The notes beneath the pieces were generated by a model. It saw only the letters and a list, made by a program, of their open reading frames with translations. It searched no databases and was not told the DNA's origin. DNA of 64,000 bases from contig OW569359.1 of assembly GCA_937625935.1 (NCBI GenBank), forward strand, positions 372,001-436,000, written 5' to 3'. The translations under genes were made by a program, and so were the position numbers. Source of the DNA: Tetramitus jugosus. Its lineage: Eukaryota > Heterolobosea > Eutetramitea > Acrasida > Vahlkampfiidae. This document shows positions 22,874 through 41,855 of the stretch, one piece after another. Within the stretch, counting starts at the first letter, position 1, and the number at the start of each line of letters is the position of its first letter.

Positions 22874-23262
22874 GAGCAGTGTTGGATGCGTCAACAAGGA
22901 AAATGGAGAAAATGATTGGGTTATAGATGGGTGAAGGTGCGTTTGCTGCTTCTGATGACGATACATGGACACGGCCGTGTTTGCAAACGAGAGCTTGTGT
23001 GAAAATGGATGGTTGCCCCAACTTTCCAGTTCCAATATATCAAATGATAGCAGCAATGGAGCTTGATTGTCTTTTGTTGGCAAAAAATCTGCATGACCAC
23101 GCCCGATCGCGTGGAAATCCTTTTTCCCGCGGAGCAATTTACAACAATCTGCTATTTTCCTGTTCAAAGAGAGATCTCTCTTGGCTGATCAATGATCGTA
23201 AAACCAACCAGCGGAAAACCCAAAAAGCGAAGCAACAACACCATCAACATACCATTAAAGAC

Positions 23263-23841
23263 ATGTCTCACCAAGGAGCAGATCTACATGACGTCTGGCC
23301 ACACTACACTGGTCCTTCTCACGACACAAAGCTCATCATCGAGTACAATCAATCTGGTACATTTGGTCACAACTTTGATCCATTGACTCCAACTCAGGTC
23401 GCTCACAAGCCAATGATACACATCAAGACGAACTCTGATAAAAAGTTTTTGACTGTTGTCCTGGTTGACCCTGATGCACCATCCAGAAAGAACCCTATTC
23501 GTCGTGAATGGTTGCACTACATTTGTGCCAACATTCCAAACAGCGGTGGTGATAGTGTGATGAGTCAAACGGGTGAAGACCTTGTGGGCTATGTCGGTGC
23601 AGGACCACCACAAGATTCCGGTTTGCACAGATACATTTTCCTCGTGTTTGCTCACGACAATCACTTGACTCTGCATTCTCCAGATGAGAAAATGCCAAGT
23701 TCTCGTGCCACGGGAAGACCAAACTTTTCTGTTCACAAGTTTGCTCAGAGATATCACTTGGGTGAACCGTTGGCCATTGATGGATTCCAGGCAGAGTACG
23801 ATGACTATGTGCCAACCTTGTACAAGACATTGACCCACTAA
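23263..23841 (+). CDS. Phosphatidylethanolamine-binding protein (PEBP), copy 1
   Basis: 192 residues from ATG 23263 (MSHQGADLHDVWPHYTG). The frame is open from 22927, but the homologous second copy starts at the same internal ATG, which decides the start. Family hallmarks: LTVVLVDPDAPSRKNP (the DPDAPSR box), REWLHYICANIP, and the GxHRY box in DSGLHRYIFLVFAHDN. PEBPs bind phospholipid or kinase partners through this anion pocket; plant FT and animal RKIP are members. It differs from copy 2 at two residues I can see (His for Asp in HYTG, Leu for Met in VVLVDP) plus silent changes, so both copies look under selection. Confidence 0.93.
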   Translation: MSHQGADLHDVWPHYTGPSHDTKLIIEYNQSGTFGHNFDPLTPTQVAHKPMIHIKTNSDKKFLTVVLVDPDAPSRKNPIRREWLHYICANIPNSGGDSVMSQTGEDLVGYVGAGPPQDSGLHRYIFLVFAHDNHLTLHSPDEKMPSSRATGRPNFSVHKFAQRYHLGEPLAIDGFQAEYDDYVPTLYKTLTH

Positions 23842-23943
23842 ATAAAGCACAATAAGTTGTGTGATCTTATTAATTTGGTTGTTCGAATGATTGTTGAAAG
23901 ATACTGCACAATCTGGTTTAAACTAATCTTTTTAGTTCTTTTA

Positions 23944-24397
23944 CTAAAGTGGAAACTCTGCTCTTCGTCTACTCTCTTGCATCAATGCTATTTGCTTGAG
24001 ACGATGAAACTTGTTGATAAAGCCCCCAACGACTCCAATGGCGATCATTACTGCCATCATGGCGAAGAAGCCAAGAATTACACCCAGTGCAATCATACCT
24101 TGCTTTCTTTGGTTGTTCGTTTCACATTGTTTGCCCTTGTATCTCAACTGACAATAGCAAGAATCGGGCGAGCTACAAGAACCATGACCTGAGCACACCT
24201 TAGGATCGGTATTACTCAAGCCGAAGCATTGGAAGCGCTCACACATGGTTCCATTGTACTTGTTTTTGCAGATGCAAGTGTCTGGTGCAACACATTGACC
24301 AACACCAGAGCAAACTCGTCTTGTTTCATCACTTCTTGTATTGAAGCACAATGCTAAATCGCAAACGTCACCGTCGTATCCCGTTTTACAAGAGCAT
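23944..24397 (-). pseudogene. Truncated 3' end of RCC1-EGF membrane protein gene
   Basis: The frame encodes the last 1.5 to 2 EGF-like units (CKTGYDGDVCDLALCFN, then CVAPDTCICKNKYNGTMCE), the membrane segment and the cytosolic tail ending SRRRAEFPL. It matches the end of the intact gene at 41402-43237 with a handful of changes. It has no 5' part: homology stops at 24397, and upstream lies unrelated inserted DNA. A secreted-protein pseudogene on the same strand runs into it in another frame. It lacks a start, signal peptide and RCC1 propeller, so it is a relic left by the rearrangement. Confidence 0.88.
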
Positions 24398-26470
24398 TCC
24401 ATACTCCTGATTGTGTTGTTGTATCTAGTAGATGCGAAGTAGTTCCTCTTAAGCTTCTAATCTGAGAATCTACCATGTACTTGATTACCCAGTCACTGTA
24501 TAAAGTACATCTTGTATTGTCATCCACGATTATTCTTGCAATGTAGTCAAAATATTGTTTTGATCTACAATTGATCTCTACAGAGCTTCCTGATTGATCA
24601 TATACATCAGTCAAATAGTCGTCTCCTCCATTGTTTTCTTCTCCTGGAACAGAATCATAGGTATAAATGATGCGTTGATTTGCACAATTGCCACAGCAGA
24701 TTCTGAGGGAATTGATTGTCATCTTGTACATATCACATTGACTTGTAGTTAATCCATTCAATCTCAGTGCTCCATACTCTTGTGCCTTGAACGTATACAG
24801 ATGCAGGAATCTGTAATTGTTTCTCTTGGTAAAGTATTAATGATGAAGTAGGTACTTTGTCAACGAATACGTCTGTTGGACCTGCATTATAACAAATAGA
24901 AATATCTGTGACCACAGCAATCTTTGTTTGATCAATAGAATTTGGTCCAACTACATTAATTGTAAATGTATTTGCATCTCTTCTCTGAAGACAGTTATCC
25001 TGTGCCAAGTCTGATAATAGAGCGAATGTCTGACAACACTTAGTTGTATATACGCTAGAGCAATTAGGTTCAAAATATCCTAGAGTCAAAGTAGTATGGA
25101 CATCATCACTATTGATCAAACCAGATGAGTTGAATGCTAACCATTCATGTGGCTTACCACTGGATGGATAGTTTACACATATCTGGATAAGAGTCTCGAT
25201 CTTTTCAATAGTTTCGTCAAATCTAGTAGTCAAATGATTCACAGTATATCCCAGATTGCCAGGATTGAAAGCAACACTACTCGTACCGTATGAAAGCGAA
25301 GTAATTCCAAAAGTACAACTGTCCTTATATACTATTGAAGGATCAGAGAAAGTAATATTTCTAGCTTTTGCCCATGTATCTAATGATGCATTGTATTCAT
25401 CTGATAAACGTCTGTTATATATATCTATCACGGCTGTAGTTCCTATTTTCTGTGCTGACACTATCTGGGCACCGAAGCATTCAACCAAGTCATTCACAGT
25501 CACTCTTAGCTTGTATATAGCCATCTTTGTTACCTGAGAGTATTGACTATCTTCTGTGGTAGTATATGTAATCAATCCATTGAGATATTGAGACTTTGCA
25601 CCTGCTATACAAGTGACGTTTTCAATTATTCCTGTAAGACCCGGTAGATAAGCTGCTTTTGCAGTTATCTCTAAGATAGCAACTCCTTTGGTCTTCTCTT
25701 GTGGTGTAAGCTCGGAGTCTGGTAAAGTTCTTGAACTACAATCAACGTATTGTTGTATTTCTAACCCTTGTGTTGGTAATGGATCTGGACAGGTAGATCC
25801 ATCTCCGTTACATACTCCACATCTACAACTACAAGATTGTTTTTCAAAACCAGATCAGTCACTGGTGCATACTTGTTGTATATCGTATCATTTGCCAATA
25901 GATCAAGTACCTTTGTTTGATAATGTAACAGGGAAAAGTTATCAGCCATTAGAGTCTTTGTACAGACAGTAGACGGTCCGTTACAAATACCACATGCATC
26001 ATATGACGCACATTCCTCACATTTAGTACCTGCATATCCAGTAGAACATGTACAGAGATCAGTACCTGTACATTTACCTCTACCTGTACAAACTGTATTG
26101 TTTGTTGACTTGATTCCAAAACATGTATTTTCCACACAGCTAACTCTAACAATTGCTGGATATTGAACTTCTTTACCAGCATTATCGATAATGTTATAGG
26201 CAAGATTAAAAACTCCAACTGTGTTACACCTATATGCAATTTTCATCCCACCAGATGTAACTGTTGCAGTGTTAATAGATGAACTTTGACTGACAATGAA
26301 TAAATGATCGATTGGAGTAGATCCGTCTATGTCGTTTGAAAGCACGTCAATTTCAAGGACATTGTTATGCTTGATGGTTGCACTCTCATCTACTAAAAAT
26401 TTATGTGGTGAGAACTGAGCAAAAATAAACTCAGAAGTAAAATCAGGAATAAGGCAACTAATGTCTTCAT
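24398..26470 (-). pseudogene. Secreted CGVCNGD-type cysteine-rich protein, frameshifted and truncated
   Basis: ATG 26470 begins a signal peptide (MKTLVALFLILLLSLF). A break in the A5 run at 26421-26425 shifts the frame. The next part has a cadherin-like start (NNVLEIDVLSNDIDG), an EGF-like unit (CTGRGKCTGTDLCTCSTGYA) and CASYDACGICNGPSTVC. A second shift near 25850 restores CRCGVCNGDGSTCPDP, followed by a long region to about 24780. A third shift there continues with NGLTTSQCDMYKMTINSL. At 24397 it runs into the duplicated RCC1-EGF tail. The CxxCxxCNGD module is common in secreted proteins of amoebae and ciliates. Three shifts and a chimeric end make this a pseudogene unless the assembly is faulty. 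Confidence 0.7.
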
Positions 26471-26554
26471 TTGTTTATGACGATTCGATGTGTGTCAGTA
26501 GTTTGCAATCATAGATTTTTCAAATACATATACAATGTAGAAATTCAATTGTAA

Positions 26555-27025
26555 ATGTGGTCCAGATTTATTATCCTTTTAGCCTTGTTTTTGGTATTGA
26601 GCTCCGCTTTAGCCCAATTTAATGACCACTATGATTATGTAGTGGATGACAGTTTGACACCACCAGACACTTCCTGTATATATGACATGTGTGGTGTTTG
26701 TAATGGAGATAATTCTACTTGTGGAGAAACAGATCAAGTACCATTTGATAACTCTTTAATTCAACATGTTTATTGTTCAATAGATGAAACTGGATTAGAT
26801 GAATATACTATGCTAGTATCGGCTTCGTACAGAAATGGTTACAACAATCAACTTATTCCTTGGTGTAACGACGAAACTATTATCCATAGAAGCACTGTAT
26901 CTTCAGAAATAGTTGGTGCAAGAGAAATATATAGATTAACAATGAGTATTGACGATATACGAAACTGTTCTGGTAGGTTGACACCATTACAACGAACACC
27001 GGAGCGGACCGCTCGGATACTTTGA
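26555..27025 (+). CDS. Secreted CGVCNGD-type protein, probably truncated by a transposon
   Basis: ATG 26555 opens a signal peptide (MWSRFIILLALFLVLSSALA), an acidic spacer, the module CIYDMCGVCNGDNSTCGE, and a beta-rich stretch with paired cysteines. It shares the module and layout with the divergently transcribed pseudogene starting 84 bp away, so the two are paralogues around a common promoter. The frame ends at 27025, but the last 10 residues (RTPERTARIL) come from the left terminal repeat of the Harbinger element at 26994. The family normally continues, so I read this as a gene cut by the insertion. No continuation was found beyond 29710. Confidence 0.6.
   Translation: MWSRFIILLALFLVLSSALAQFNDHYDYVVDDSLTPPDTSCIYDMCGVCNGDNSTCGETDQVPFDNSLIQHVYCSIDETGLDEYTMLVSASYRNGYNNQLIPWCNDETIIHRSTVSSEIVGAREIYRLTMSIDDIRNCSGRLTPLQRTPERTARIL
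26994..27016 (+). repeat. Left terminal inverted repeat with palindrome
   Basis: GAACACCGG is followed by a palindrome, GAGCGG-A-CCGCTC, overlapping its end. The right end (29689-29710, read on the minus strand) has the same nine bases followed by CGGTCA-C-TGACCG. The arms differ in sequence but keep the same plan. Confidence 0.6.
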
Positions 27026-27222
27026 GACATAGGAGCAGACCAATTATACTCTGCGGTCATCACGATTTGACACAATGTGGACCCTCGCCCAAGATTTGCT
27101 CAAGCACATCCGGTCACTAGCTTTTATTCTGGAAAATTTTGCGTCAAAATTTTGGCACGCTTCAGTTTCCAACTCGTTGAAGACTGTTGTGTGACTCTTA
27201 TTCGCTCCAATAAATTGAACCT

Positions 27223-27438
27223 TCAAATATGAAAATGAGTGTTTATTCTTGTTGTGGTTGAGGTCCCAAGTGAGCTAGCAGTCGATCCACGGATTCCTTG
27301 ATAGTGGCAACATCTCTTGGTGTCGATAAAGGCCTGCTCCACCCTGGACAAACGCAATCCAACCTCATCCTCCGGACTAGTCCCTCCACCAAGAATTTTC
27401 ATACATGACGCCATTATCATCGTCTTCATCTCCTCCAT
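27223..27438 (-). CDS. Small ORF inside the Harbinger element, doubtful
   Basis: 71 residues from ATG 27438 (MEEMKTMIMASCMKILGGG). A short amphipathic stretch (EVGLRLSRVEQAFIDTKR) is visible. It lies 78 bp downstream of the partner protein gene on the same strand, so it could be an extra element protein or chance. No family recognised. Confidence 0.25.
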   Translation of the reverse strand: MEEMKTMIMASCMKILGGGTSPEDEVGLRLSRVEQAFIDTKRCCHYQGIRGSTASSLGTSTTTRINTHFHI

Positions 27439-27516
27439 TCTGTCTCTCCCCTCTTCTTGCGTCTAATTTTCGTCAGTTGAGAAATTTTCTCTGCTCGTTT
27501 CTCCGCGATCGCTTCG

Positions 27517-28212
27517 TCAGTTTCGCATTTGGGTATTAGATTTCTCCTTTTGCGCGAACTCGATGAAATCTTCGGCGGATCTGATTGCGGCGCTATCAGT
27601 TGCAGATGACAAATGATCCGCTTCTCCGTCGTCTAACAATTGTTCCACCTCATTGAGCGGTCGAACCATGTCAGATTCCACATCTTCGTCATCATCAGAT
27701 ATATCTTCGTCTATATTGGCTATAATTGCCGATCTCTTCTTTGTTCCAACTCTGTTTCCTTTCTTCTCATTTCGGGTGGTGTTCTTAGAGTAGATGTGCG
27801 TTTGGATCTTGGTTCGGATTGCATCATCGCTAACTATCTTCTTAGTTTTTTCCTCCATTGCTTTCTTGATTTGGGACATGACATCCTTCACCCGACTTTC
27901 CCTAAATAATGAGTCCATTTTCATATCACACATCACATATGCGGAACATAGAATTCGCGACCATTTTTGATTGATTCGTACGACGGCCTGTCGAGGTTTG
28001 ACAGGAGATTTTGAGGCACTCACGGTCTCCAACTGATCATCATCAGATGGGAAGCCCAAGACGTCGTCGAGGATCTGTGATCCAGTTGATTGACTTTGTA
28101 GTGTCGAGAGTGATGGTTGTGTAGGTGGTGATGATGGTAATGATGGAGTCGTGGCAGTTGAAGCGCTCGAATGAACACTCATAAGAGCAGCAGTGATATC
28201 TGTTGTGAACAT
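27517..28212 (-). CDS. Harbinger partner protein (putative Myb/SANT-like DNA-binding ORF)
   Basis: 231 residues from ATG 28212 (MFTTDITAALMSVHSS); the TTG upstream at 28239 is rejected. The first 80 residues are Ser/Thr/Pro-rich. The middle (INQKWSRILCSAYVMCDMKM, then VKDVMSQIKKAMEEKTKK) is basic and helical, followed by a basic KKGNRVGTKKR patch and an acidic C-terminal third with DEDISDDDEDVESD. It is divergently transcribed from the transposase across a 106 bp promoter gap. In PIF/Harbinger elements the second gene encodes a Myb-like protein that helps the transposase find the ends and enter the nucleus. I infer that role from position; the Myb fold is not obvious. Confidence 0.5.
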   Translation of the reverse strand: MFTTDITAALMSVHSSASTATTPSLPSSPPTQPSLSTLQSQSTGSQILDDVLGFPSDDDQLETVSASKSPVKPRQAVVRINQKWSRILCSAYVMCDMKMDSLFRESRVKDVMSQIKKAMEEKTKKIVSDDAIRTKIQTHIYSKNTTRNEKKGNRVGTKKRSAIIANIDEDISDDDEDVESDMVRPLNEVEQLLDDGEADHLSSATDSAAIRSAEDFIEFAQKEKSNTQMRN

Positions 28213-28318
28213 TGTTTGTGTTTTTTTTGCGTTGGTCAACTAAAACATTCAACAAACAAAATGAAACTGACAAAACAACAGGAGGCTTGTCTTGTGTTAT
28301 TGATACTCACATGTTTTG

Positions 28319-29263
28319 ATGAAGAGAAGATTGAGTATGGTCAATCTATACAGACGTGCTTTGCACATCAACCAAGGGCTTGTCCGTGGTGTAATCAAAG
28401 AAAAACAACGACAAATGTACAACGGAACTGATGTGTACAGGAAGTGGACGATGGGTTCAGATCGCCAATTCAAGCAATTGCTGCATCTCAGCAAAAATGA
28501 GTTTGATACGATCGTGAGTGCTTTGAGAGAGTATGAACTCAGTATGGAATGTAAGTCTCTCTGCTTGACATTCGAGAATCAAATACTACTAATTCTATAT
28601 TGGATAGTGCAGTACCCCAGGTATTCAATACTTTCTTCAGAATTTGGTGTCTCCGAATGTGTTGTATCGAGATATATTAATGCAACGATTCCTTATTTGG
28701 TCAAATACTTTGTTCAATTTATACCCAACAAGCGAGTGAGCGATCATTGCTCCTCAATAAGTGAAAGAGTCATATTTGTTGTTGACGGAACAGCGCATAT
28801 GATCCAGAAGCCCACCTCTGGTCAGCATCGATGGTATAGGAAGGACAAAAACGGTCACTGGATTCAAACGTTACTACTCGTAGATTTTGAGAGCAACATT
28901 GTAGCATTCAGCACAAATTTTCCATATCGTCTCTCTGATTCGGCATGTGCAAGACACTGCAATCTTTTCAGTCGAATTTGCAATGAAGATGGTCAGTGTT
29001 TTGCGTTGGGTGATCCTGGTTTTCAAAATGTGGACTACGTTGTGGCTGGACTCAAGGCCAATATGGTTCGTGGTGATGGTTGTCGAGAGTTCTTGAGAGT
29101 AACAAGAAGAGAACAGATTGTGGTGGAACATGTTAATAGCTTTATTAAGACATGTAGGTCGTTGAACAATGAATTCAGGCACAATCACGATCTTCTCACT
29201 GGTTGTGTGTTTGTTGCTTGTGGTCTGTACATGTGGAAAAAAAAGTTGGGTCATTACACCTGA
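28319..29263 (+). CDS. PIF/Harbinger transposase (DDE_Tnp_4 type)
   Basis: 314 residues from ATG 28319 (a preceding TTG is rejected; ATG 28340 is an alternative). The N-terminal third has the helix-turn-helix region of this family (LHLSKNEFDTIVSALREYEL, then SILSSEFGVSECVVSRYIN). Catalytic residues: first Asp in IFVVDGTAHMIQKP, second Asp in FALGDPGFQNVDYV, and Glu in VVEHVNSFIKTCRSL. The stretch RHNHDLLTGCVFVACGLYMW matches the usual C-terminus. The frame is complete, so the element could be, or recently have been, active. Confidence 0.88.
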   Translation: MKRRLSMVNLYRRALHINQGLVRGVIKEKQRQMYNGTDVYRKWTMGSDRQFKQLLHLSKNEFDTIVSALREYELSMECKSLCLTFENQILLILYWIVQYPRYSILSSEFGVSECVVSRYINATIPYLVKYFVQFIPNKRVSDHCSSISERVIFVVDGTAHMIQKPTSGQHRWYRKDKNGHWIQTLLLVDFESNIVAFSTNFPYRLSDSACARHCNLFSRICNEDGQCFALGDPGFQNVDYVVAGLKANMVRGDGCREFLRVTRREQIVVEHVNSFIKTCRSLNNEFRHNHDLLTGCVFVACGLYMWKKKLGHYT

Positions 29264-29968
29264 CTTGTTGGTGGGCTGTACTTCTAGACGCTGGATGATT
29301 GAATGGGCATTTGTATATCGGCTGTGCTGGATCTCCAAGTAAGTGCAAGGGTCGATATTTAAGCCGTGCCAGAGCCCGCTCCTACGGTCACTCACTAGTT
29401 CCAGCACAGCACAGTCGAGACATTTGCAACATTCAATCATATTGGTCGAGAGAAAGTTCTCACCACTGTGGCTACTTTCTCGCTGCAGCCCAAACCAGTT
29501 TTATCACAATAAAAAAAAAATACAATGTGGTTTGTTGGAACCTTCAAAAATTCCTTCCGAATAAGATGCACTTTTTACCACCCTTTGAAGAGACTCCAAC
29601 TGCAAACACCACAACCTAAACGCTCACAAATTATCGAATAAAAGCCCTACTCACAGTTCCTGGTTCGGTCAAACTTTCCCCCCAAGCTGAACGGTCAGTG
29701 ACCGGTGTTCATTGAACGGCGAGTGAACGAAAAATGAGCGGAGGTCAAGAAATAGGTCCAATGACCCGAGCAAGAGCATGAACGGAATATTATTTCATTT
29801 ATTTTTCCGTAATTTCTACTGAACGCAAGAAAAAAATGAACTTTTATCAACGTGTAACCGCTTTAATAGAGGAAATCATCCTTTACGTAGATGGGGTAAA
29901 AAACGTCTATTCAGCTACTGTTAATACAAAAGTATGATGGAGGAGGATACGATGATTACAGCGATGTG
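29264..29968. other. Non-coding stretch spanning the right end of the Harbinger element
   Basis: About 700 bases. The part up to 29710 is element 3' flank with an A-rich tract near 29510. Beyond 29710, GAAC-containing words recur (GAACGG, GTGAACGAA) without a clear repeat unit. The frame of the Mrr-like gene stays open upstream of its ATG to about 29900 with plausible residues, so a short upstream exon cannot be excluded. Confidence 0.4.
29689..29710 (-). repeat. Right terminal inverted repeat with palindrome
   Basis: Read on the minus strand this begins GAACACCGGTCACTGACCG, matching the left end for the first nine bases and then forming its own short hairpin. It lies about 430 bp beyond the transposase stop. 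Confidence 0.6.
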
Positions 29969-30787
29969 ATGAACGATTTGGGTTCACGACAAAGAACGCT
30001 GAAGAACTACATTGATAATCATGAAAGGATTACCAATGATTACATGGAGAAAGTCAAGGAGCGTATTAAAACCTGTCTTGCCGACATTAGTCAATCCGAG
30101 CACTTGAAAGCAAAGAATGATGAATACGGATTAAGACCATCCACTGTATTTGAATGTTTAGTTGCCGCTTTATTGAAAGCTACTCATGTAGGAGGATCTG
30201 GTGATGGTGGTATTGATGGTAAAGGTGAAACCTTTATTATCCAATGTAAGGCAGGCAGGTCACAGGTAAAAAATGCTGCCAGTAACTACAGAGATACAAT
30301 CGCTGCTGGTATTATTCATGGTGTTAGTTGTGCATATTTAGTGGGAACATGGAAATTAGATGAATTTCCTTCTCAAAATGCTGTGCTAACCAAACTTCGT
30401 AACAATCATGCGGGTTACGAGCCAATTTCCAATTTTGAAGTAATTGTGATGGGCATTGAAGGAGTAACACGTGACATTGAGCAATTAGATGACTATAAGG
30501 AGTCACTAGAGTTTTTGTATCGATTTCTTAGTAGCCTCGACCACTTCGACCAGAAGGAGGAACTACTCGAAGCAATGAAGATGTTGATCGATTTTGATTA
30601 CACTGTTATGGAAGAAGGATACGCAAAGGTGCTGACAGCTATAAACACAAGCGATCAACAATGGGAACAAGATAAACAGGATGACCCTTCTCAGGCTGAA
30701 CTAGAAGCTTATTATCCCTCTGACTCAGAAGACGAAAGTGCCGACACATCTGATTCAGTAGATGAAAGTGATGAAATTGCGGAGTAG
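29969..30787 (+). CDS. Mrr-like restriction-endonuclease-fold protein
   Basis: 272 residues from ATG 29969. The core near residues 70-100 reads HVGGSGDGGIDGKGETFIIQ followed by CKAG. This fits the GxGxDGGID...(D/E/Q)xK nuclease motif of Mrr/type IV restriction enzymes, with catalytic Asp in GGID and Lys in QCK. The following segment (AASNYRDTIAAGIIHGVSCA) continues the alpha/beta fold. The C-terminal 50 residues are very acidic (SDSEDESADTSDSVDESDE). Mrr-type proteins cut modified or foreign DNA in bacteria; in eukaryotes such domains are found in transposons and transferred genes. A longer N-terminus is possible because the frame is open upstream. Substrate unknown. Confidence 0.65.
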   Translation: MNDLGSRQRTLKNYIDNHERITNDYMEKVKERIKTCLADISQSEHLKAKNDEYGLRPSTVFECLVAALLKATHVGGSGDGGIDGKGETFIIQCKAGRSQVKNAASNYRDTIAAGIIHGVSCAYLVGTWKLDEFPSQNAVLTKLRNNHAGYEPISNFEVIVMGIEGVTRDIEQLDDYKESLEFLYRFLSSLDHFDQKEELLEAMKMLIDFDYTVMEEGYAKVLTAINTSDQQWEQDKQDDPSQAELEAYYPSDSEDESADTSDSVDESDEIAE

Positions 30788-30797
30788 GACACAATTT

Positions 30798-31005
30798 TTA
30801 CAGAACACATTTGTCTCCATCACAGTAAAGCTCTGGTAATGGATCAATACCTTTTCTAACAACATTGCTGATTGGACTCTCTTCTCCAGACAATGGAGCA
30901 TTAACAAGTGCAATCATTTGGTTGTATGTATCCTCTTCAATCTCTTCGTATGGTGCTTGCTTGTAAATCTTATTGTAGTTTATAGTCTGGGCAGAAACTA
31001 ATTCC
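30798..31005 (-). pseudogene. 3' relic of a class II ribonucleotide reductase gene
   Basis: The frame encodes YNKIYKQAPYEEIEEDTYNQ, then SPISNVV, ending IDPLPELYCDGDKCVL. It matches the last 60 residues of the RNR at 36799-38923 with about 11 differences. A few more degraded bases match just upstream (GGAATTAGTTTC against GGTATTAGCTTC), after which homology ends near 31005. The redox cysteines of the tail (CDGDKC) are kept, but there is no catalytic domain. The copy is more diverged than the PEBP repeat, so it is older or came from another RNR gene. Confidence 0.82.
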
Positions 31006-31223
31006 AGAATCAATGCATACCGGTGTTGCCCCCACTAATAAACTGACTGTACATGTTTCAGGTGATCATTATTGCTGCTTTGTTGGTTCATGGCAAGAAG
31101 AAGCTCAAATTGAATAGTCCAACACACATACAAGTATAAGTACACTTCCCTTTACAATCTTGTAACAACGGAAATAATTCCCCTTCTTTACAAAATCTAT
31201 TTTTATATTTCAAAAACTCACAC

Positions 31224-31868
31224 ATGCATTCATTTTCTTCTCTTGAGACTCTCTCCCCCAATAATGATTTGATTAATCATTTCAAGCAGATCTTCAAAGA
31301 TTACGAAGCTTTTGTCATTGATACCAACGTACTCATCAAACTCGTGCTAAATGAAGACCTCCACGAAGCAGCAAAAGCTGCTTGGCTAGCACTTATTGAA
31401 ATGGACAAGAGAATTTGTGCTCCTGCTGTGATAATGATTGAATTCAAGAGTGTTTTGCTCAAAAGGTTGAAGAAGAGAAATACAATCGACAAAACAACCT
31501 ACGACAGCGCTGTTGCCTATGGAGATAAGCTGTTTCCTAAATTACAGTTGTACCAAATGACCAGTGAATTCGTTGGTACATACTCGTTATTTGACGATGT
31601 AGTGACTAAATCGAGTGTCCCCTTAACAGCAGCTGATGCCTTCTTCGTGACTCTTTGTTGTTTGATAGAAGAAGAACAAGAAGAAGAAGAAGAAGGGGAT
31701 GATAGAGATGTGGTGAAGACAATGAAGACAATGCTTCTGACTTATGACAAAGAAATGAAAGATACTGCGGGTGTGTTTTCTTTGGAATACCACAGTCCAG
31801 CACCAAAGAAGACACAAAAGAAGAAACAGAAAAAATGGTTTGGCAAGAAATATAAGCACAGCAAATAA
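31224..31868 (+). CDS. PIN-domain protein (putative ribonuclease)
   Basis: 214 residues from ATG 31224. PIN acidic residues are in order: Asp in FVIDTNVLIKLV (near 33), Glu in VIMIEFKSVLLKRL (near 73), Asp in LTAADAFFVTLC (near 139), and Asp in LLTYDKEMKDT. The layout is that of VapC-like PIN proteins, which cut RNA with bound Mg or Mn. An inserted acidic run (EEEQEEEEEGDD) and a strongly basic tail (KKTQKKKQKKWFGKKYKHSK) are added; the tail could bind nucleic acid or direct nuclear entry. No antitoxin-like partner gene is visible beside it. Function in the cell is unknown. Confidence 0.72.
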   Translation: MHSFSSLETLSPNNDLINHFKQIFKDYEAFVIDTNVLIKLVLNEDLHEAAKAAWLALIEMDKRICAPAVIMIEFKSVLLKRLKKRNTIDKTTYDSAVAYGDKLFPKLQLYQMTSEFVGTYSLFDDVVTKSSVPLTAADAFFVTLCCLIEEEQEEEEEGDDRDVVKTMKTMLLTYDKEMKDTAGVFSLEYHSPAPKKTQKKKQKKWFGKKYKHSK

Positions 31869-32967: not shown

Positions 32968-33055
32968 TAAACAGTGAGGACAATAGGGTATTCTGTAATT
33001 GGACTCAGAGAACTCAATTTCTGGACAGTGGCATGAGATGGTGGGGCTTGTAACA

Positions 33056-35647
33056 TCAGTAAGGCTTATATCGATATGAATGTTGATTGGTATTTTCATC
33101 TTCAGTTAGTTCCCATAAACTCATCATTGTTGGTGTATTAAACGATGAGTCATAAACGAATAAACTGTCCAGTTCATCTTCTATGTTTACATCTTCTAGT
33201 GCTTCATTACTTTGAGAGTAATTTTCCTCCTCACTCAATACTAAGCCTTCATATTGTTCTTCTTCTTGTGATAATTCACTGCTAGTGAAAATATCTTCCT
33301 CGATCAACATATTTGAACTTTCTTCTATCTGACTTCTTTCAGAACTCTCCTCACCGAGAATAATTTGAACAGGCATTACCTGTTGATCAATAGACGGGGG
33401 ACAATAATTTTCTAAAGTTCCTTCTTCTTGAAAGGCCTGGAATTCCTCCATCTGTACTATCGATTGATACAATTGGTCCGATCTTTGACTGTTGTCTATT
33501 CTATCACATCTCTTACGTCTCTGTCTAGGAAGATTCCAACATAAATTGACATTGTTTAGGACTACCCACACCTGTCTGAGCGAAAAACTGAATAGTTGAG
33601 TAAGTATATCGTGACCCGATCGACCTCCTTCATGATTCGTTCCTCTCGTATAGCAGTTGTTCATCAGTTGATGATGAGACTCCAAAACTTGAGTACTGAA
33701 AGGACATAAACTCTTGTACTCTTCTATCAACGTTGGTAAATGGTGTATTAGAATATGAAGATACCATCCTACTCCTTGTTGGGGCCATCTTTGAGAAATA
33801 CATTCTCCTAATTTCTTCAGCAATTGTTCTAAAGACTCATCATGTCTCTTGGATAAGTGCTCTGTTGTTCCCTCGAGATAATCGAAGCATATGGTAGCCC
33901 AGAGTAACCATATGTTAGACAGTAATCGGTCAAAGTACCGATCATCATTAAAAATAGTACTAGTGCTTTTCAATATCATTGTACACTGTTCTCCTGTTAG
34001 TGGAGGACATCTGTAACTTCCATTATCAACCACCTCCTGTTCATCATCAATGTCAACTGAACTAGAACCTTCTTTGGTTACAAAGTGAAAGCCTTTAAGT
34101 CCTTTTAACTTATCGATTTCTTTTTCAATGATATCCATAAGCTCTCGATCCCCTCGACTGGATAGAAGTAATAAATTTCGAGTAATAGCTTGTTTGCAAT
34201 GTAGATTACATACTATAAAGTTGATTCGCTCACCATGAACATGCAAATCTCGTTTGTTCCTAATTTTTCCAAACTTGTTGGCTTTTGATTTGGTGCATAC
34301 ACAATAGGGACAGAAGAGATCAGTATCTGAATAGAGACCGCCATCCACAATCGAGTCCAGGAAACAGAGATCAGTGCACCATACTGGCTTAATGGTTGTT
34401 GAGGCTTCCTTGTTCGAACAAGTGACAGACACTAAATAGTTCAACACCCTTAGGGACACGAGATCCTTAATTGTGGTTTCAAGATACCCACGACCCAAAG
34501 ACTCACAACCTCTCCAAAGGACTGTAGGAAAGACGGATCTTCTACATTGGCTATCAAATTCCTTCAATCCCACTGTTTTGATAGTAAAAATATTGGTTCC
34601 GTCGTTCCCTCTCAACCTCCCTCTCTGTCCATCACCACTGAAAACTAAGTATACTTCTGATGGAAGAACACCGTGAAGCTTTAACTCAATAGCTAGAATC
34701 GCTTTGATAACGACCAGGAAGCAACAACTCACAGAGACCACAATCTTATCAACAATTTCTTCATCGATTGTAAAGTAATTCTCTATCTCGTCAAATATCG
34801 ATTGTTTTCTGTTTGATAGTGCCGTCAAATTAGGGAATCCAATTGCATCCACCATTCTATAGAGGAAGAAGTAAGCTCTATCACTTAACAAAATTCTATC
34901 TTTCATGTAAATAAAAACATCGCAGTTCATCGTAATTTGGCCAGTACATAGTGATTGAACTCTTGCAATGTTATCCTTATGTCGAGAGCAAAACGATTGG
35001 ATTATTGTGAAAAGGATACTCGGATTGATTATTGTCAGGTATATTGTCAACACAGTTACCAATGATTGATTCGATAGTTCTAAAAGCTTTTTGAATGTTT
35101 CTACCCAGTTCTTGACGTGGTTTCTTTGTTTAAAGGTCGTCTTTGTGTGAGTAGTGATTGGATCAGGTCGCCTCCTTGGTGCTCGTTTAACTGTATTAGA
35201 GCCACATCGATTACAGATCACTGCGAAGGCATCTTTGTTGATATTAATAGTGTTCTCTGGATTTTCAATATCATTGCTGGTGTTGTCTTTGGTGATCAGG
35301 TTGTTCAACCATGAGAAAACGTGTGCTGCTCGTTCTGGATTTGAAGGTAAGTATAATAGCCTGGTGCAGAATCGGATATCTCCATAGCAAAGATTGTTAA
35401 ATTTGACTGTCGGTATTGTTTGCTTAAGTGACTTCACACCAGAATATGCAGCGCCGGTGTAGTGAGTAAGTTGAGCAATGTTCAAATAAAACAACTGATT
35501 GTAAATGATTGTGTTGATAGTTGTATCACCATCAACAAATGCTATCATTGTATGGTTTTCTGCGATCGAGCGCCCATCACACTCGATTTCGGATGGTAAC
35601 CAACCAATCCTCATCAGGCAGAATGTTGTGGAGAGTTCTATTTTCAT
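33056..35647 (-). CDS. Large transposase-like protein with Cys/His insert
   Basis: 863 residues from ATG 35647. Features in order: an N-terminal Cys pair (ICNRCGSNTVKRAPRRR); a central strand-like VYLVFSGDGQRGRLRGNDG with a possible first catalytic Asp; then VWCTDLCFLDSI with a second Asp. A zinc-type cluster (DLFCPYCVC...HVHG) is followed by a helical region with WYLHILIHHLPTLIEEY and FSTQVLESHHQLMNN (possible Glu). The tail is acidic. The plan of an RNase H-like fold interrupted by a Cys/His insert recalls the KDZ transposases and related uncharacterised animal and oomycete proteins, but I cannot assign it. The frame is intact, although the neighbourhood is decayed. It may be the active gene of a larger element. 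Confidence 0.5.
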   Translation of the reverse strand: MKIELSTTFCLMRIGWLPSEIECDGRSIAENHTMIAFVDGDTTINTIIYNQLFYLNIAQLTHYTGAAYSGVKSLKQTIPTVKFNNLCYGDIRFCTRLLYLPSNPERAAHVFSWLNNLITKDNTSNDIENPENTININKDAFAVICNRCGSNTVKRAPRRRPDPITTHTKTTFKQRNHVKNWVETFKKLLELSNQSLVTVLTIYLTIINPSILFTIIQSFCSRHKDNIARVQSLCTGQITMNCDVFIYMKDRILLSDRAYFFLYRMVDAIGFPNLTALSNRKQSIFDEIENYFTIDEEIVDKIVVSVSCCFLVVIKAILAIELKLHGVLPSEVYLVFSGDGQRGRLRGNDGTNIFTIKTVGLKEFDSQCRRSVFPTVLWRGCESLGRGYLETTIKDLVSLRVLNYLVSVTCSNKEASTTIKPVWCTDLCFLDSIVDGGLYSDTDLFCPYCVCTKSKANKFGKIRNKRDLHVHGERINFIVCNLHCKQAITRNLLLLSSRGDRELMDIIEKEIDKLKGLKGFHFVTKEGSSSVDIDDEQEVVDNGSYRCPPLTGEQCTMILKSTSTIFNDDRYFDRLLSNIWLLWATICFDYLEGTTEHLSKRHDESLEQLLKKLGECISQRWPQQGVGWYLHILIHHLPTLIEEYKSLCPFSTQVLESHHQLMNNCYTRGTNHEGGRSGHDILTQLFSFSLRQVWVVLNNVNLCWNLPRQRRKRCDRIDNSQRSDQLYQSIVQMEEFQAFQEEGTLENYCPPSIDQQVMPVQIILGEESSERSQIEESSNMLIEEDIFTSSELSQEEEQYEGLVLSEEENYSQSNEALEDVNIEDELDSLFVYDSSFNTPTMMSLWELTEDENTNQHSYRYKPY

Positions 35648-35795
35648 TTCAGTACAACAATTGGAAGATCATGAAAAAGGATTACAAGATTGGAAAAAAA
35701 CAACGCCTTAATCCTCCGAACCGTCGGTTGAGATAATTAGGTCGTTGTTCATTTTGAATTGCTTCTCATCAAGTCGACAAGAAAATACTCAAAAC

Positions 35796-36387
35796 ATGGT
35801 ATCCGTAAAGGAACTTTCGAGGGAAACAGTCGTTGCCCTTAAAAGAAATTTACTGAGTAAAACAAATCCCGAACAACAGTTTAGGATTTTTGCTTCTGCT
35901 CCTTACGCCATTGCTTGTACTTTTCCTTCCTTTTTAGGTCTTCCGTTTGTTATCGCGCTTCTTTCCTTCGGCGCTTCTCTTTCCAGTGTTGCCGCAGTAT
36001 TGAATTTCTCTCATTCGACGGAGTTGAGCCCTCAATTTGGTTATCAATGGATCCCCGATAGGAGTTGGTTGCACAGATGAAGTACGATATGCATGACGTA
36101 CTTGATGGTTGTCCTTATTTGGAGGACCCTCAGACATGCAAGGTCTATCTTTGGTCAAAGTGGATAGAGGTGAGGAGTTCGCAGTGGATTTCTTTGTAGA
36201 CGATGTTGATGACCCGGGAGATTTCTTTGCCGTAGATTGGGACTTTTTCTGGGCTTCTCTTTGGCTTGGCTTGCGGTATGGTGCACCGCTATTCCAGTGG
36301 CTAACTGGTGTTCTTGGTTCAACTAGAGTGTTGGTTTGTTTTGTCGTTTTTTGTTTTTCTTGGTTGTACTTTGCTGCTGTTGGTTAA
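35796..36387. other. Unresolved coding-like region, strand uncertain
   Basis: On the plus strand ATG 35796 gives 94 residues (MVSVKELSRETVVALKRNLL, then a hydrophobic half). On the minus strand a long frame ending at 35934 is rich in Lys, Ser and Thr (AQKKSQSTAKKSPGSSTSST, then KRSAEGKKRDNKRKT), as in a basic nuclear tail; it has no clear start. One may be the shadow of the other. Neither has a recognised family. Confidence 0.25.
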
Positions 36388-36798
36388 CTTTTAAAGGACA
36401 GAGACGATGAACAATTATCATCATCGAGGCACCAAAAGAGAGGTCTAAGAAAAATCTCCCAGAGTGACCAAAGTTGTCACTAGACTGAGGACACAAAAAG
36501 TGTTGTGGGCGTTGGAGAAACTACAGATTTATTGATGGAGCGTCGACAGATCGCCCGGTTTTTTTGTAATTGGAAATCTTTTTTTCGGCTATAAACAGGG
36601 TGTTAAAAACAGAGAGGACCAAATGCCCCCTCCAAAAGAAACACCACTATGTTCTAGTGGGTAACGGGGGCTTGCATTGGTTTTGTCGGACATTGCCCGC
36701 ACGAACAAGGTTCTTGGAAGTTCTTTCTCCTTGTGCAATGACATATCTGAGCTTGTATGAATCAATAAAGTTATTCGTATTTAAAGAATAATTAGTGT
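36388..36798. other. Intergenic, no gene seen
   Basis: 411 bases between the unresolved region and the RNR stop. Short frames only; no RNA gene or repeat seen. Confidence 0.4.
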
Positions 36799-38923
36799 TT
36801 ACAAAACGCATTTGTCACCGTCGCAATACAATTCAGGAAGAGGATCTATACCATTTTTAATCACGTTGTTGATAGGACTGTCTTCACCAGACAACGGGGT
36901 ATTTACGAGAGCCATCATCTTGTTGTATATATCCTCGTCAATCTCTTCATATGGTGCCTGCTTGTAGATCTGATTATAGTTCATTCTTGGCAGGAAGCTA
37001 ATACCTTGAGCATGTACTGGAAGTAATTCAGAGCGAACGGGATCTGAGGACCTTCTTTCTCTGGATCAAAGCTCACAGTACAGCTCACCTGATTATCAGC
37101 CCAATACTTTTGTAGGAATGCTGCCAAATTCAATTGCTCCCACATACTAACAGACCCTTCTGTTCTGGTATTATCACCTGAACACACTGGGAATGAAACC
37201 ACAGAAGTTTCAGTGCTAGGATACTCTTCTGTTACAGCATTTCCTTCTTCGTCAAATAACGGTGTTCCTTCCTTCTCTACTTGTCTCTCCAGAATAAGTG
37301 GTTCTACGTGATAGCCTTGTTTCTTCAATCTATAAGTCAAATCAGAGTTTGTTGCAATACGCATTCTTCTGATATAATACTTGCTCTTAGGATAATGCAT
37401 ACCCGGAATAGCACCTGCTAATAGACTTACTGTGCCACTAGGCTTGATACATGTGGTCTTAATACTTCTTGGAATACAATACATCTTTGAGAACTCGTCA
37501 TCATACTTCTGAATGGCACTATATCCTTCAGTACAGAACTTCTTCAACTTATCAATGTTATATTTTGCAAGGAACTGTGCAATACCTGTCGTATACATCC
37601 AATTCTTCTGTTTCTGAGTAATACTCTGTTTGTCTCTTCCCAGTGAGTAGTACCAAGAGTTACAGTCTTTGCATAGAACAATGCATAGCGCAAAGTCTTG
37701 AGATAGTCTTCCAGAGACTCATGTTTAGCTGGGAATGTTTCTACTAGGCAACACAACTCATAACTCTCAAGAGTTTGTTCCAAGCAAGGATTGCCTCCAG
37801 TTGCTTTGACATCCTTCCAATCTGGTTCACCATCCATACGAGAGAATGCTTGCATATTCTCTAACCAAGCAAATCCCGGTTCACCATTGGTTCTAGCTCT
37901 TTGTGATGCATCAGTGTAATCCATTCCAAGTTCAGCAAACACAGAGTTGTTTGAAATATAACCAAAGTCCATACGATAAGGGTTCTTGTGATAATTCTTC
38001 AAATCCATAAACTCCTCATCTGGGTCACCAAAGCTAATCTCTGCCGTTCTTCGGACATTTCCAGATACAACACACTTACCAACCAGATTCATTAAATCGA
38101 CAATAGATGTCGCAGTGATTGGTTTACCCTTGTTTTTTTCAAGAACTTCTTTGATCTGTTGATGCATGATCTTCAAGGGCTCTGGTCCGCTTGATACACC
38201 ACCAAAACCTTTGATTGGTAATCCAGCTGGTCTTACTTGACTGTAATCGAACTGTACGTCACCATAGCTTTCAGTGAAGTAAGAATCAATGAGGAGTTTG
38301 AGTGACTTTACCCATCCTTCTCTTGTATCTTCAACAACATAAACCAGATTACCTGATAGAGGGTGATATGTGCCTCTTACAACAATCTTTCCTTTTCCTT
38401 TGGTGTCAAAACCTACTCCAACACCAAGCATTGCCATATCCACCATGAACTCAAAACACTTTGATACACAGTCAGCAATACTTCCAGTAGAGACGAAAGC
38501 ACAATTGTTGAGAGAAGCAAACAGACCCTTATCTTCAGTGATAGGAGATCCCATTGCCCAGAGTCCTCTACCCGGTGGAAGGAACTTCATATAGAAGATT
38601 CTTTCATACAATCCAGAAGCCATTTCAGAAGCAGCCATCTCGTCCCATCCTAATCCAGATTTAACCATCCATGTTTTGCTCATGTTCATAGTACCATTCA
38701 CTACTCTTTCTACAGTTTGAAACCATTCTTCATTGGTTACTCCATCTTCCAACAAACGAGAATATGTACGCTTGTACACAATCTCTCCAAGACCATTGAA
38801 CCCAAACTCAGGTTTGATGTTCTTATATTGTTCAACAAAGTCACTTGATAGCTTAAAAGGCTCTTTATGCTTTTGAACGTTGTTGTGGATGATTCTGGTA
38901 ACTGCTTGACTTGCTGCTTTCAT
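36799..38923 (-). CDS. Class II (adenosylcobalamin-dependent) ribonucleoside-triphosphate reductase, two frameshifts
   Basis: ATG 38923 opens the RTPR fold: FLPPGRGLWAMGS, then LNNCAFVSTG with the first redox Cys. MLGVGVGFDTKG and NPCLEQTLESYELCCLVETF carry the active-site Cys and Glu, and CDGDKCVL at the C-terminus carries the shuttle pair. The gene would encode about 708 residues, normal for the family. Two frame breaks occur: near 37585-37600 (IGC then TGIAQF) and at the CC run 37004-37005 (MLK then ISFLPR). The enzyme makes dNTPs from NTPs using B12. Naegleria and Euglena are among the few eukaryotes reported to have it. The breaks may be assembly errors or mark a decaying copy. Confidence 0.85.
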
Positions 38924-39035
38924 TTGTTTTGTTGTTCACTCTGAAACACTCTGGCATTGTTAATACTGAAGAAGGCAATGTGTGGTGATTACCTAAAGTT
39001 GATGAGATTTATCAAGAGAGTTTAATAAACACTCG

Positions 39036-39575
39036 TTAAACCTTCTTTAATGACTTGAGTAATATTATCACCTGTAGTGAAAACATAGTAGAGTCTAACA
39101 ACAGTCTCCAAAAAGCAAACATCAACTTGATTGTAAACCCACTGGTGAACAACTTGAAGAAATTGAATGACATCTGGAACAGAGATGCTAATGGCATTAT
39201 CATTGATGTGAGTTTCACTGTATCAAAAACGATCTTGCTATATTTAGGGTCTAGATCAGTTGTAATATTCAGATAGATTGACAGACGTGCTGTAATGAAA
39301 GCAAGTTCACTCCAAAAGAATACTTGTTCAAACAAGAAACATATTGTAAACTCTGTGCTACCTACAGTAACTGATATGTTATAAAATGAAGTAACCAGAA
39401 GCCATAGCATTAAATGGACTACAGATAACAATACAGAAAGTCTTCCATACGTGATCTTCATTAAACCGTCGTTATCACCACCTTCATGTTCGTCCATCAT
39501 ATTGTTGTTGTTATTCTTTTGTTTTGTAGCAAGTCTATCACAGTTTATTGTTGAGATATTGTTTGAATATATCAT
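39036..39575 (-). CDS. Four-helix membrane protein, unknown
   Basis: ATG 39575 gives 179 residues; ATG 39500 or 39497 (MMDEHEGGD or MDEHEGGD) removes an Asn-rich leader and the overlap with the next gene and is equally likely. Four hydrophobic segments follow (YGRLSVLLSVVHLMLWLLVT, FTICFLFEQVFFWSELAFIT, LTSMIMPLASLFQMSFNFF, FWRLLLDSTMFSLQVIILL). The N-terminus is acidic and the C-terminus basic. No family recognised. It resembles none of the flanking host genes. Confidence 0.5.
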   Translation of the reverse strand: MIYSNNISTINCDRLATKQKNNNNNMMDEHEGGDNDGLMKITYGRLSVLLSVVHLMLWLLVTSFYNISVTVGSTEFTICFLFEQVFFWSELAFITARLSIYLNITTDLDPKYSKIVFDTVKLTSMIMPLASLFQMSFNFFKLFTSGFTIKLMFAFWRLLLDSTMFSLQVIILLKSLKKV

Positions 39576-39897
39576 TATGAATAACAGATGTACTGACTAT
39601 GTAACTACCGTCGTATGAGATCGAATCATGATAGTTCAGCCATTCTATACACTTTTTAATTATATGATCTCTGCAAATACGAGTGTATTCAAATGCAAGC
39701 ACATCAACCATGTCAACAAGCATCTTGTGTGGATAGCTCTTCTGATGATTTAAACTAACAATTTCTATAGAGTATACCTGTACAGCTATTCTCTCCTTTT
39801 CTTCAGGTGTTGCCTGTCTTGTCAATTGATATTCTTTTACATCAACTGGCTTTTTGTAGTTTACCACTGCTATGACTACAATAACACATACATATCT
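39538..39897 (-). CDS. Small hypothetical protein, start unclear
   Basis: The frame encodes at least 109 residues (VNYKKPVDVKEYQLTRQATP, then KMLVDMVDVLAFEYTRICRD). It is preceded in frame by a hydrophobic stretch (YVCVIVVIAVV) but no ATG, so it may be an exon, a truncated gene, or read from a non-ATG start. It overlaps the longer start of the neighbouring membrane protein by about 38 bp. No family recognised. Confidence 0.35.
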   Translation of the reverse strand, partial: RYVCVIVVIAVVNYKKPVDVKEYQLTRQATPEEKERIAVQVYSIEIVSLNHQKSYPHKMLVDMVDVLAFEYTRICRDHIIKKCIEWLNYHDSISYDGSYIVSTSVIHNDIFKQYLNNKL

Positions 39898-39992
39898 GAA
39901 TCAACACTTTTACATTTGATATGGAAGTATTCATTCTTTTTGTTTGTTAATTTTACAGCTATTCGTCAACACAAGTAGATCAACTAATATAA

Positions 39993-40640
39993 ATGATCGC
40001 AAACCTAATTGTATTATGCCACGGTCAATCAGGCAATACCAGTCATATGAGATCTCTTGAACAATGTTTGAAAGAATCTCTAATAAACACCTTTGTACTC
40101 AACTCTGCTGCCAATGAAAATTCCACAAGTGATGGAATACGTAATTGTGCATTTAGACTCCTTAACGAGATATATGAATTCTATCAGATTCACTTATATC
40201 CATACAACACTATATACTTCAGTATTTGTGGTCATTCTCTAGGTGGTCTAATAGCGAGATATGTTATTAAACTTATATACGAACATGACGTTCTCAGAAA
40301 TGTATTCAAACCTGTTGGAATAACGCTCGTGTCTTCACCAAATTTAGGTTCTAGAAAGCCAAGAGGAAGTATTCTAAGCTTTATTGCAAACAGTTACCTT
40401 ACAGTATTGTGTGATAAGACAGGAGATCAACTATTACTCAATGATCCGTTGCTGAAAGATATGTCAGAAGGATCGTACTTGGAAGCACTCGATTGGTTTC
40501 CAATTAAAACACTAATAGCACCAGTATCAGGAGATAAAGTAGTTCCTAGATCATCTGCAATGATACTACATAACAATCCGTTTAGAAGAGCAATTTACAA
40601 CAATCGGCCATTTTCCTCTTCAAAGAGATCTCTCGGCTGA
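39993..40640 (+). CDS. DUF676-type serine esterase, C-terminus replaced at the repeat junction
   Basis: 215 residues from ATG 39993. LIVLCHGQSGNTSHM is the first strand and oxyanion region. FSICGHSLGGLIARYVIKL is the nucleophile elbow (GHSLGG), and VGITLVSSPNLGSRKPRGS follows. IKTLIAPVSGDKVVPRSSAM supplies the Asp. This is the DUF676 alpha/beta hydrolase family of putative lipid esterases. The coding frame crosses into the right 1.27 kb repeat at 40588, so the last 17 or so residues (AIYNNRPFSSSKRSLG) are not original. A catalytic His downstream is therefore missing, and the protein is probably a truncated relic. There are no internal stops. Confidence 0.68.
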   Translation: MIANLIVLCHGQSGNTSHMRSLEQCLKESLINTFVLNSAANENSTSDGIRNCAFRLLNEIYEFYQIHLYPYNTIYFSICGHSLGGLIARYVIKLIYEHDVLRNVFKPVGITLVSSPNLGSRKPRGSILSFIANSYLTVLCDKTGDQLLLNDPLLKDMSEGSYLEALDWFPIKTLIAPVSGDKVVPRSSAMILHNNPFRRAIYNNRPFSSSKRSLG

Positions 40641-41855
40641 TCTATGATCTCAGCAAACCAACGAGCGAGAAACCCCAAAAAGCTTTGAAGCACACCATCC
40701 ACACCAGCCATTGAAAGACATGTCTCACCAAGGAGCAGATCTACATGACGTCTGGCCAGACTACACTGGTCCTTCTCACGACACAAAGCTCATCATCGAG
40801 TACAATCAATCTGGTACATTTGGTCACAACTTTGATCCATTGACTCCAACTCAGGTCGCTCACAAGCCAATGATACACATCAAGACGAACTCTGATAAAA
40901 AGTTTTTGACTGTTGTCATGGTTGACCCTGATGCACCATCCAGAAAGAACCCTATTCGTCGTGAATGGTTGCACTACATTTGTGCCAACATTCCAAACAG
41001 TGGTGGTGATAGTGTGATGAGTCAAACTGGTGAAGACCTTGTGGGCTATGTCGGTGCAGGACCACCACAAGATTCCGGTTTGCACAGATACATTTTCCTC
41101 GTGTTTGCTCACGACAATCACTTGACTCTGCATTCTCCAGATGAGAAAATGCCAAGTTCTCGTGCCACGGGAAGACCAAACTTTTCTGTTCACAAGTTTG
41201 CTCAGAGATATCACTTGGGTGAACCGTTGGCCATTGATGGATTCCAGGCAGAGTACGATGACTATGTGCCAACCTTGTACAAGACATTGACCCACTAAAT
41301 AAAGCATAATCAGTAGTGTGATCTTATTAATTTGGTTGTTCGTACTGATTGTTGTAAGATACCACACAATCTGGTTTAAACTAATCTTTTTAGTTCTTTT
41401 ACTAAAGTGGAAATTCTGCTCTTCGTCTACTCTCTTGCATCATTGCTATTCGCTTGAGACGATGAAACTTGTTGATAAAGCCCACAACGACTCCAATGGC
41501 GATCATTACTGCCATCATGGCGAAGAAGCCAAGAATTACACCCAGTGCAGTCATACCTTGCTTTCTTTGGTTGTTCGTTTCACATTGTTTGCCCTTGTAT
41601 CTCAACTGACAATAGCAAGAATCGGGCGAGCTACAAGAACCATGACCTGAGCACACCTTCGGATCGGTATTACTCAAGCCGAAGCATTGGAAGCTCTCAC
41701 ACATGGTTCCATTGTACTTGTTTTTGCAGATGCAAGTGTCTGGTGCAACACATTGACCAACACCAGAGCAAACTCGTCTTGTATCACTACTTCTTGTATT
41801 GAAGCACAATGCTAAATCGCAAGCGTCACCATCGTATCCCGTTTTACAAGAGCAT
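40588..41855 (+). repeat. Right copy of the 1.27 kb direct repeat
   Basis: It matches 23133-24397 in the same orientation. On its right the RCC1-EGF gene continues without interruption, while on its left the match stops inside the esterase frame. This side keeps the original link between the PEBP gene and the full RCC1-EGF gene. Confidence 0.93.
40720..41298 (+). CDS. Phosphatidylethanolamine-binding protein (PEBP), copy 2
   Basis: 192 residues from ATG 40720, the same length as copy 1. It has DPDAPSRKNP, REWLHYICANIP, DSGLHRYIFLVFAHD and the same C-terminus YVPTLYKTLTH. Compared with copy 1 I see Asp for His (DYTG), Met for Leu (VVMVDP) and several silent changes such as AACAGT for AACAGC. 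It converges with the RCC1-EGF gene, with stops about 100 bp apart. The leader upstream of the ATG is more diverged than the coding part, so promoters may now differ. Role as for the family: lipid or partner binding, not predictable in detail. Confidence 0.93.
   Translation: MSHQGADLHDVWPDYTGPSHDTKLIIEYNQSGTFGHNFDPLTPTQVAHKPMIHIKTNSDKKFLTVVMVDPDAPSRKNPIRREWLHYICANIPNSGGDSVMSQTGEDLVGYVGAGPPQDSGLHRYIFLVFAHDNHLTLHSPDEKMPSSRATGRPNFSVHKFAQRYHLGEPLAIDGFQAEYDDYVPTLYKTLTH

Follow-up and report, generated by a model that had tools for sequence, protein, structure and literature searches.

A 16.2 kb segment between 1.27 kb direct repeats of host DNA in Tetramitus jugosus, probably an old fragment captured during break repair

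In a 64,000-nucleotide stretch of the Tetramitus jugosus genome (contig OW569359.1 of assembly GCA_937625935.1, positions 372,001 to 436,000; referred to as the window, with positions numbered from its first base), a segment of 16,190 bp is flanked by two diverged copies of 1.27 kb of host DNA, which carry a PEBP gene and the 3' end of an RCC1-EGF gene. On balance, we favour the view that the segment is an old linear fragment, probably of an extrachromosomal agent (a large DNA virus or plasmid) or of a host subtelomere, which was captured in the repair of a widely offset break, with duplication of the 1.27 kb. The locus would thus represent a datable uptake of a 16 kb DNA fragment by a protist chromosome, with both junctions visible.

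RESULTS

The segment is flanked by a direct repeat of otherwise single-copy host DNA

The repeat and the genes at its edges are as follows.

23132-24397, plus strand: left repeat copy, with the PEBP 5' non-coding DNA, PEBP, the intergenic DNA and the 3' end of a minus-strand RCC1-EGF gene, which is truncated there
23263-23841, plus strand: PEBP, left copy, an open frame
24398-40587, no strand assigned: inserted segment, 16,190 bp between the repeat copies
40588-41855, plus strand: right repeat copy, continuous with the full RCC1-EGF gene
40720-41298, plus strand: PEBP, right copy, an open frame; the PBP domain was demonstrated on this copy
41402-43282, minus strand: RCC1-EGF gene, an open reading frame (ORF) of 626 residues

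The two copies lie in the same orientation, have sharp edges and are identical at 1224 of 1276 aligned columns; a separate global alignment gave 33 substitutions and 18 gap columns. Each begins with 131 bp of non-coding DNA from 5' of PEBP, followed by the gene itself, 102 bp of intergenic DNA and the final 454 bp of RCC1-EGF. An initial annotation of the window had described such a repeat, with the full RCC1-EGF gene next to its right copy. The orientation, the edges and the open 626-residue ORF were all recovered, and its coordinates hold overall, the left start excepted, which moves by one base from 23133 to 23132. In a search of the whole assembly (26.35 Mb, 56 contigs) the repeat matched its two copies and one stretch of 274 bases on contig C1, at 66% identity. 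The DNA of the repeat is therefore host DNA that is otherwise single-copy and that is present on both sides of the segment. No obvious sequence is common to the junctions at 24397/24398 and 40587/40588. Upstream of the right PEBP gene, the DNA beyond 132 bases belongs to the insert. The frame of the left PEBP gene stays open upstream, across the repeat edge, to an ATG at 22927, which gives an ORF of 304 residues (22927-23841).

The segment differs from its surroundings in composition. Its GC content is 38.9%, versus 42.4% in the left and 42.7% in the right flank (p about 2e-7, Mann-Whitney, 32 versus 90 tiles of 500 bases), in agreement with the A+T-richer segment of about 16.2 kb first reported; without the two repeats nested within it, 9.3 kb remain, with a GC content of 37.4%. 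The lipase and adhesin frames of the segment have a GC content at third codon positions (GC3) of 0.26-0.27; in its ribonucleotide reductase (RNR), Mrr-like and membrane-protein frames GC3 amounts to 0.34-0.38, and in host ORFs to 0.38-0.47 (n=11, in the window).

The ends of the segment are unlike those of a mobile element: the right end falls inside a lipase gene and the left end in an open adhesin frame. No inverted repeat of at least 40 bases was found across 20000-45000, a search that did not extend to shorter terminal repeats at the segment ends. Among the ORFs scanned, the only recognisable recombinase or integrase was the Harbinger-like DDE transposase of a nested multicopy element. Moreover, the genome search at the DNA level, which passes over very common words and scores the best candidates only, found no second copy of the element as a whole; the matches listed for the insert were to the nested repeats or to RNR sequence. 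Since the matches listed are confined to these parts, we rejected the idea that the insert was copied from elsewhere in the genome. The initial annotation had pointed to a search for the same 16 kb segment at other loci: the whole segment does not recur, and the nested repeats and parts of the RNR do.

The two copies of the repeat have decayed differently

Seventeen of the 33 substitutions between the copies are non-coding, 11 change an amino acid and 5 are silent, and all 18 gap columns are non-coding. Changes of amino acid make up 9 of the 12 substitutions in the RCC1-EGF part and 2 of the 4 in PEBP; the earlier statement that the copies differ mainly at non-coding and silent sites does not hold. 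The RCC1-EGF stub (12 substitutions in 454 bp) has a non-synonymous divergence (dN) of 0.026 and a synonymous divergence (dS) of 0.033, a ratio as expected of a dead fragment. In the PEBP copies (4 substitutions in 579 bp) dN is 0.004 and dS 0.016, the latter from 2 silent changes, and the two parts differ in substitution rate (p 0.02). These values and counts suggest that PEBP was kept at both places while the RCC1 stub drifted. The non-coding DNA of the repeat, with 17 substitutions in about 225 aligned bases, is about 10 times more diverged than PEBP (17/225 versus 4/579, p 5e-7). At the little-constrained sites of the repeat, the divergence since the duplication is about 3-8%. Codon bias or conversion might explain why the silent sites of PEBP are less diverged than the non-coding DNA. 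Gene conversion as the source of the patchy divergence along the repeat was rejected, as the central intergenic stretch is itself diverged (7/102) and does not fit a simple central tract.

The segment carries broken genes, one of them cut at the right junction

The following genes and fragments lie within the segment, outside the two nested repeats.

24398-26474, minus strand: gene for an adhesin-like secreted protein, split by two frameshifts into three frames and open as far as the left junction
26555-27025, plus strand: 5' end of a second adhesin-like gene, with a CGxCNG-type motif in common (by eye), cut at about 26983 by a transposon
29969-30787, plus strand: open ORF for an Mrr-like nuclease, single-copy in the genome (sub-threshold Pfam match, E 0.1)
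30793-31052, minus strand: RNR 3'-end fragment (30797-31002 is 78% identical to 36798-37002)
31224-31868, plus strand: PIN-domain ORF, open
36798-38923, minus strand: class II RNR gene with two frameshifts and no intein
39036-39900, minus strand: frameshifted gene that resembles one for a membrane protein (by eye) and lies divergently next to the lipase
39993-40587, plus strand: gene for a DUF676 lipase, cut short at the right junction, with a frame that enters the repeat for 17 codons

The right junction interrupts the lipase after about 198 residues. Past the corresponding point, a broken relative on contig C16, at 88.5k, is open for tens of further residues and a host relative on C46 for more than 100. 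The C16 locus also has a match to the membrane-protein frame, at 29% over 103 residues, and the two are arranged divergently there as they are in the insert, which suggests that the lipase and the membrane protein form an old unit. At this locus (C16:88.5-89.9k, L055:8543-9851) the broken lipase lies beside the match to the membrane-protein frame, and nearby (L055:1357-8147) a cluster of several similar membrane-protein-like ORFs looks, by eye, like a local gene family.

At the other end, the adhesin-like gene (24398-26474) gave matches to EGF_2 and Big_9, both slightly under the Pfam cut-offs, and its end part (24399-24836) gave none above the cut-off. The frame at 24736-25854 had no relative in the protein collection, and one searched adhesin frame had no second copy in the genome. 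The left junction likely truncates this gene too. The second adhesin-like gene had no Pfam match above the cut-off. Five insert proteins gave no match above the cut-off in NCBIfam, and for 10 proteins, including 6 of the insert, all matches to PHROGs were weak (best E for the insert 0.032). Since the neighbouring host genes are long open frames, the frameshifts in the insert genes are probably genuine decay.

The RNR of the insert belongs to a lineage that appears older than the insertion

The RNR of the insert matches PF17975 (RNR_Alpha, 2e-37) and PF21995 (class II insertion domain, 2e-15), which makes it a class II RNR. Together with copies on contigs C4 and C40, both broken, it forms one clade (support 100/100), apart from the intact, intein-bearing host RNR of contig C17 (tree built from 25 of 120 proteins listed). 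In the genome search, the sole intact RNR found was that of C17, and the insert lineage yielded no intact member. In the C17 gene (L047:4218-7748) an intein-like insert of about 371 residues lies inside the RNR core (TIGR01445, E 0.0009, slightly under the cut-off). A scan of IMG/VR with an RNR alignment yielded, among the matches listed, 600 stretches, 585 of which encode relatives; 80 loci were kept, and the 30 of these placed in a second tree with 10 proteins all fell outside the insert clade. A prokaryotic or phage origin of the insert RNR is thus unsupported: in the trees it falls with the host lineage, away from the 30 RNRs of viral contigs that were used. The initial annotation had named the host as Naegleria, a name that is not supported: the RNRs of Naegleria gruberi and Willaertia magna do not group with that of the host, and none of the 120 RCC1-EGF hits listed, out of 954, bears the name Naegleria, although most of these entries are without any name.

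By the NG86 method, whose high dS values are rough, the insert and C4 copies differ by a dN of 0.097 and a dS of 1.36 (ratio 0.07, 307 codons), the insert and C40 copies by 0.125 and 1.70 (133 codons), and the C4 and C40 copies by 0.057 and 0.46 (133 codons). Such a dS, with a low dN/dS, set against the 3-8% divergence of the flanking repeat, indicates that the RNR lineages split under purifying selection well before the insertion. As judged from sequence, RNRs of the insert type diverged as working genes long before one was trapped at this locus. The flanking duplication serves here as a clock that is independent of the insert, and it indicates that the lineage probably lived elsewhere before its capture. 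This history points to an agent in this host group that is worth seeking.

On C4, 4.6 kb separate the RNR copy from the contig start, which is a telomere-like CCCAAA array, and RNR-matching fragments, albeit short, lie near the ends of C3, C18 and C22. Four of these five loci (C3, C18, C22, C4 and C40) are within 25 kb of a contig end (p about 0.0006, a post hoc value for one of three framings; three of the matches are short, and the C3 length was not read). Among the sure copies, which are those of the insert, C4 and C40, one of three is near a contig end. Along C4:1-20000, the CCCAAA start is followed by an ORF with a weak match to Mutator-like elements, the broken RNR, an LRAT-like ORF and a truncated helicase-like ORF. 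The last lies 3.9 kb past the RNR (DEAD and Herpes_ori_bp under the cut-off, ResIII barely above it), and a C4 ORF gave a weak PHROGs match to a replication family (E 0.0024). Also on C4, 41 bp of the RNR 3' end are repeated 5.1 kb downstream. The recurrence of RNR 3' fragments downstream of the gene, in the insert and on C4, suggested an integration site in the RNR 3' end; this idea was dropped, as the insert frames match C4:1-20000 in the RNR only.

Break repair and the alternatives to it

The simplest reading of the locus is still the one that the initial annotation proposed, a large insertion accompanied by a duplication of 1.27 kb of host DNA. Of the routes considered there, the repair of a staggered break with captured DNA best fits the cut lipase and the lack of a long inverted repeat and of a recognised integrase. 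One strand would have been cut in the PEBP 5' region and the other inside RCC1-EGF, at a distance of about 1.27 kb; the stretch between the cuts would then have been copied onto both ends, by fill-in or by template switching, and end joining would have trapped a linear fragment between the duplicated ends, so that one event suffices. Later, both PEBP copies would have stayed open while the RCC1-EGF stub drifted and the captured genes decayed. The staggered break, the linear fragment and the extrachromosomal donor are steps that we infer. The simplest donor would be an extrachromosomal agent that left RNR DNA more than once. More specifically, but only tentatively, we suggest that an undescribed large DNA virus or plasmid-like agent with its own class II RNR repeatedly left nuclear fragments, here through a repair event that duplicated more than 1 kb of host DNA.

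Several observations weigh against capture from such a donor. A stagger of 1.27 kb is long for fill-in, and a truncated gene at the left end is no more than likely, as no relative of that adhesin-like protein was found. The GC3 values of the PIN ORF (0.41) and of the membrane-protein frame (0.38) are within or at the edge of the host range. For the pair of insert and C4, YN00 failed, and the dS of 1.36 approaches saturation. No relative turned up in IMG/VR when it was scanned with one protein at a time, a mode that reaches close relatives only (the queries being the RNR, lipase and Mrr-like proteins, the adhesin frame 25764-26474 and the C4 helicase-like ORF). The genome had no match to PF04451 (capsid of nucleocytoplasmic large DNA viruses) or PF04947 (VLTF3); this negative is weak, because 14 control genomes were equally unmatched. 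A viral origin of the donor is unproven. Finally, the trees place the insert RNR as the sister of the host RNR group (92/87 in the first, and 90 in the Shimodaira-Hasegawa-like approximate likelihood ratio test of the second), so that it could be an old host paralogue.

This last point agrees with a different donor and an unchanged mechanism of capture, in which the captured DNA is subtelomeric host DNA with fast-evolving host paralogues and nothing viral. The positions of the C4 copy and of the C3, C18 and C22 fragments near contig ends fit such a source, which we regard as possible, if doubtful; the C40 copy and this insert, however, are internal, the genome search yielded the insert RNR lineage in broken form only, and neither the searched adhesin frame nor the Mrr-like ORF has a second copy. 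The geometry of the locus is also identical to that left by a single homologous crossover with a circle (a virus, a plasmid or extrachromosomal circular DNA) that already bore the PEBP-RCC1 segment, and part of the repeat divergence would then predate the integration. However, a prior joining event with the same two junctions would be required, and the RCC1 stub evolves like unconstrained sequence, so that we consider this route unlikely. The copies could instead have begun as alleles, if two homologous chromosomes broke 1.27 kb apart and were end-joined with DNA caught between them. This would account for the roughly tenfold excess of non-coding over PEBP divergence, but an RCC1 dN close to dS is unlike two working alleles, and such a joining seems to us quite improbable. 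Both of these routes are geometrically possible and less parsimonious than break repair.

A misjoining of haplotypes or reads in the assembly is very improbable: the copies decay differently and are told apart by 51 or 52 alignment columns, the insert bears repeat families of the same genome, the contigs are long, and both contig starts seen (C1 and C4) are telomere-like. The long duplication with exact edges might also suggest an unknown mobile element that makes its own 1.27 kb target duplication, and the initial annotation had singled out the segment as a candidate for an undescribed mobile unit. We find this hardly credible, as the lipase is cut at the right end, the only recombinase recognised is in the nested transposon, and the unit has neither a second copy in the genome nor a long inverted repeat.

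Comparison with known systems

Capture by break repair has partial parallels. The plant transferred DNA (T-DNA) insertions described in PMC8348815 are captured DNA joined by end joining, with target duplications, deletions and filler. Here too foreign DNA would have been joined and the target duplicated; unlike the cases covered there, the direct duplication is far larger, at about 1.27 kb, and the insertion is old, decayed and in a protist. According to the account in PMC8355091, Cas9 nickases used in several species make breaks with small overhangs, and the offset cuts, once filled in, yield direct duplications; those duplications are small, whereas the present one is 1.27 kb and its copies are split by the insert. 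We found next to nothing on target site duplications of kilobase scale in the literature, which does not prove their absence from print. The shift in composition and the broken genes are like those reported for endogenous viral regions of protists (PMC11702301, PMC12344493). In contrast to the regions pictured in PMC11702301, which have capsid genes and, in 3 of 4, terminal inverted repeats, no capsid gene was found in the segment. The insert RNR has the RNR_Alpha and class II insertion domains of class II (adenosylcobalamin-dependent) RNRs, but differs from the known ones in forming a long-branch lineage, present here as broken copies only.

Two repeat families of this genome are nested within the segment

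26983-29762 (approximate), no strand assigned: Harbinger-like transposon, its limits being the extents of the matches to other copies
28319-29263, within the Harbinger-like transposon: DDE_Tnp_4 ORF, with a neighbouring ORF at 27517-28212
32542-36660 (approximate), no strand assigned: second transposon-like repeat, with an ORF of 863 residues (33056-35647, minus strand) and copies of about 90% identity on C25 and C50

The 863-residue ORF had no match in Pfam or NCBIfam, and the repeat that carries it may belong to an unclassified transposon. The other element matches DDE_Tnp_4 and HTH_Tnp_4 above the Pfam cut-offs. Long relatives of it, at about 69-70% identity, lie on C35, C7 and C30; fragments that are closer to it lie elsewhere, and C38 and C19 carry short derivatives. 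With a DDE_Tnp_4 transposase and multiple copies, it shows two of the features of PIF/Harbinger elements.

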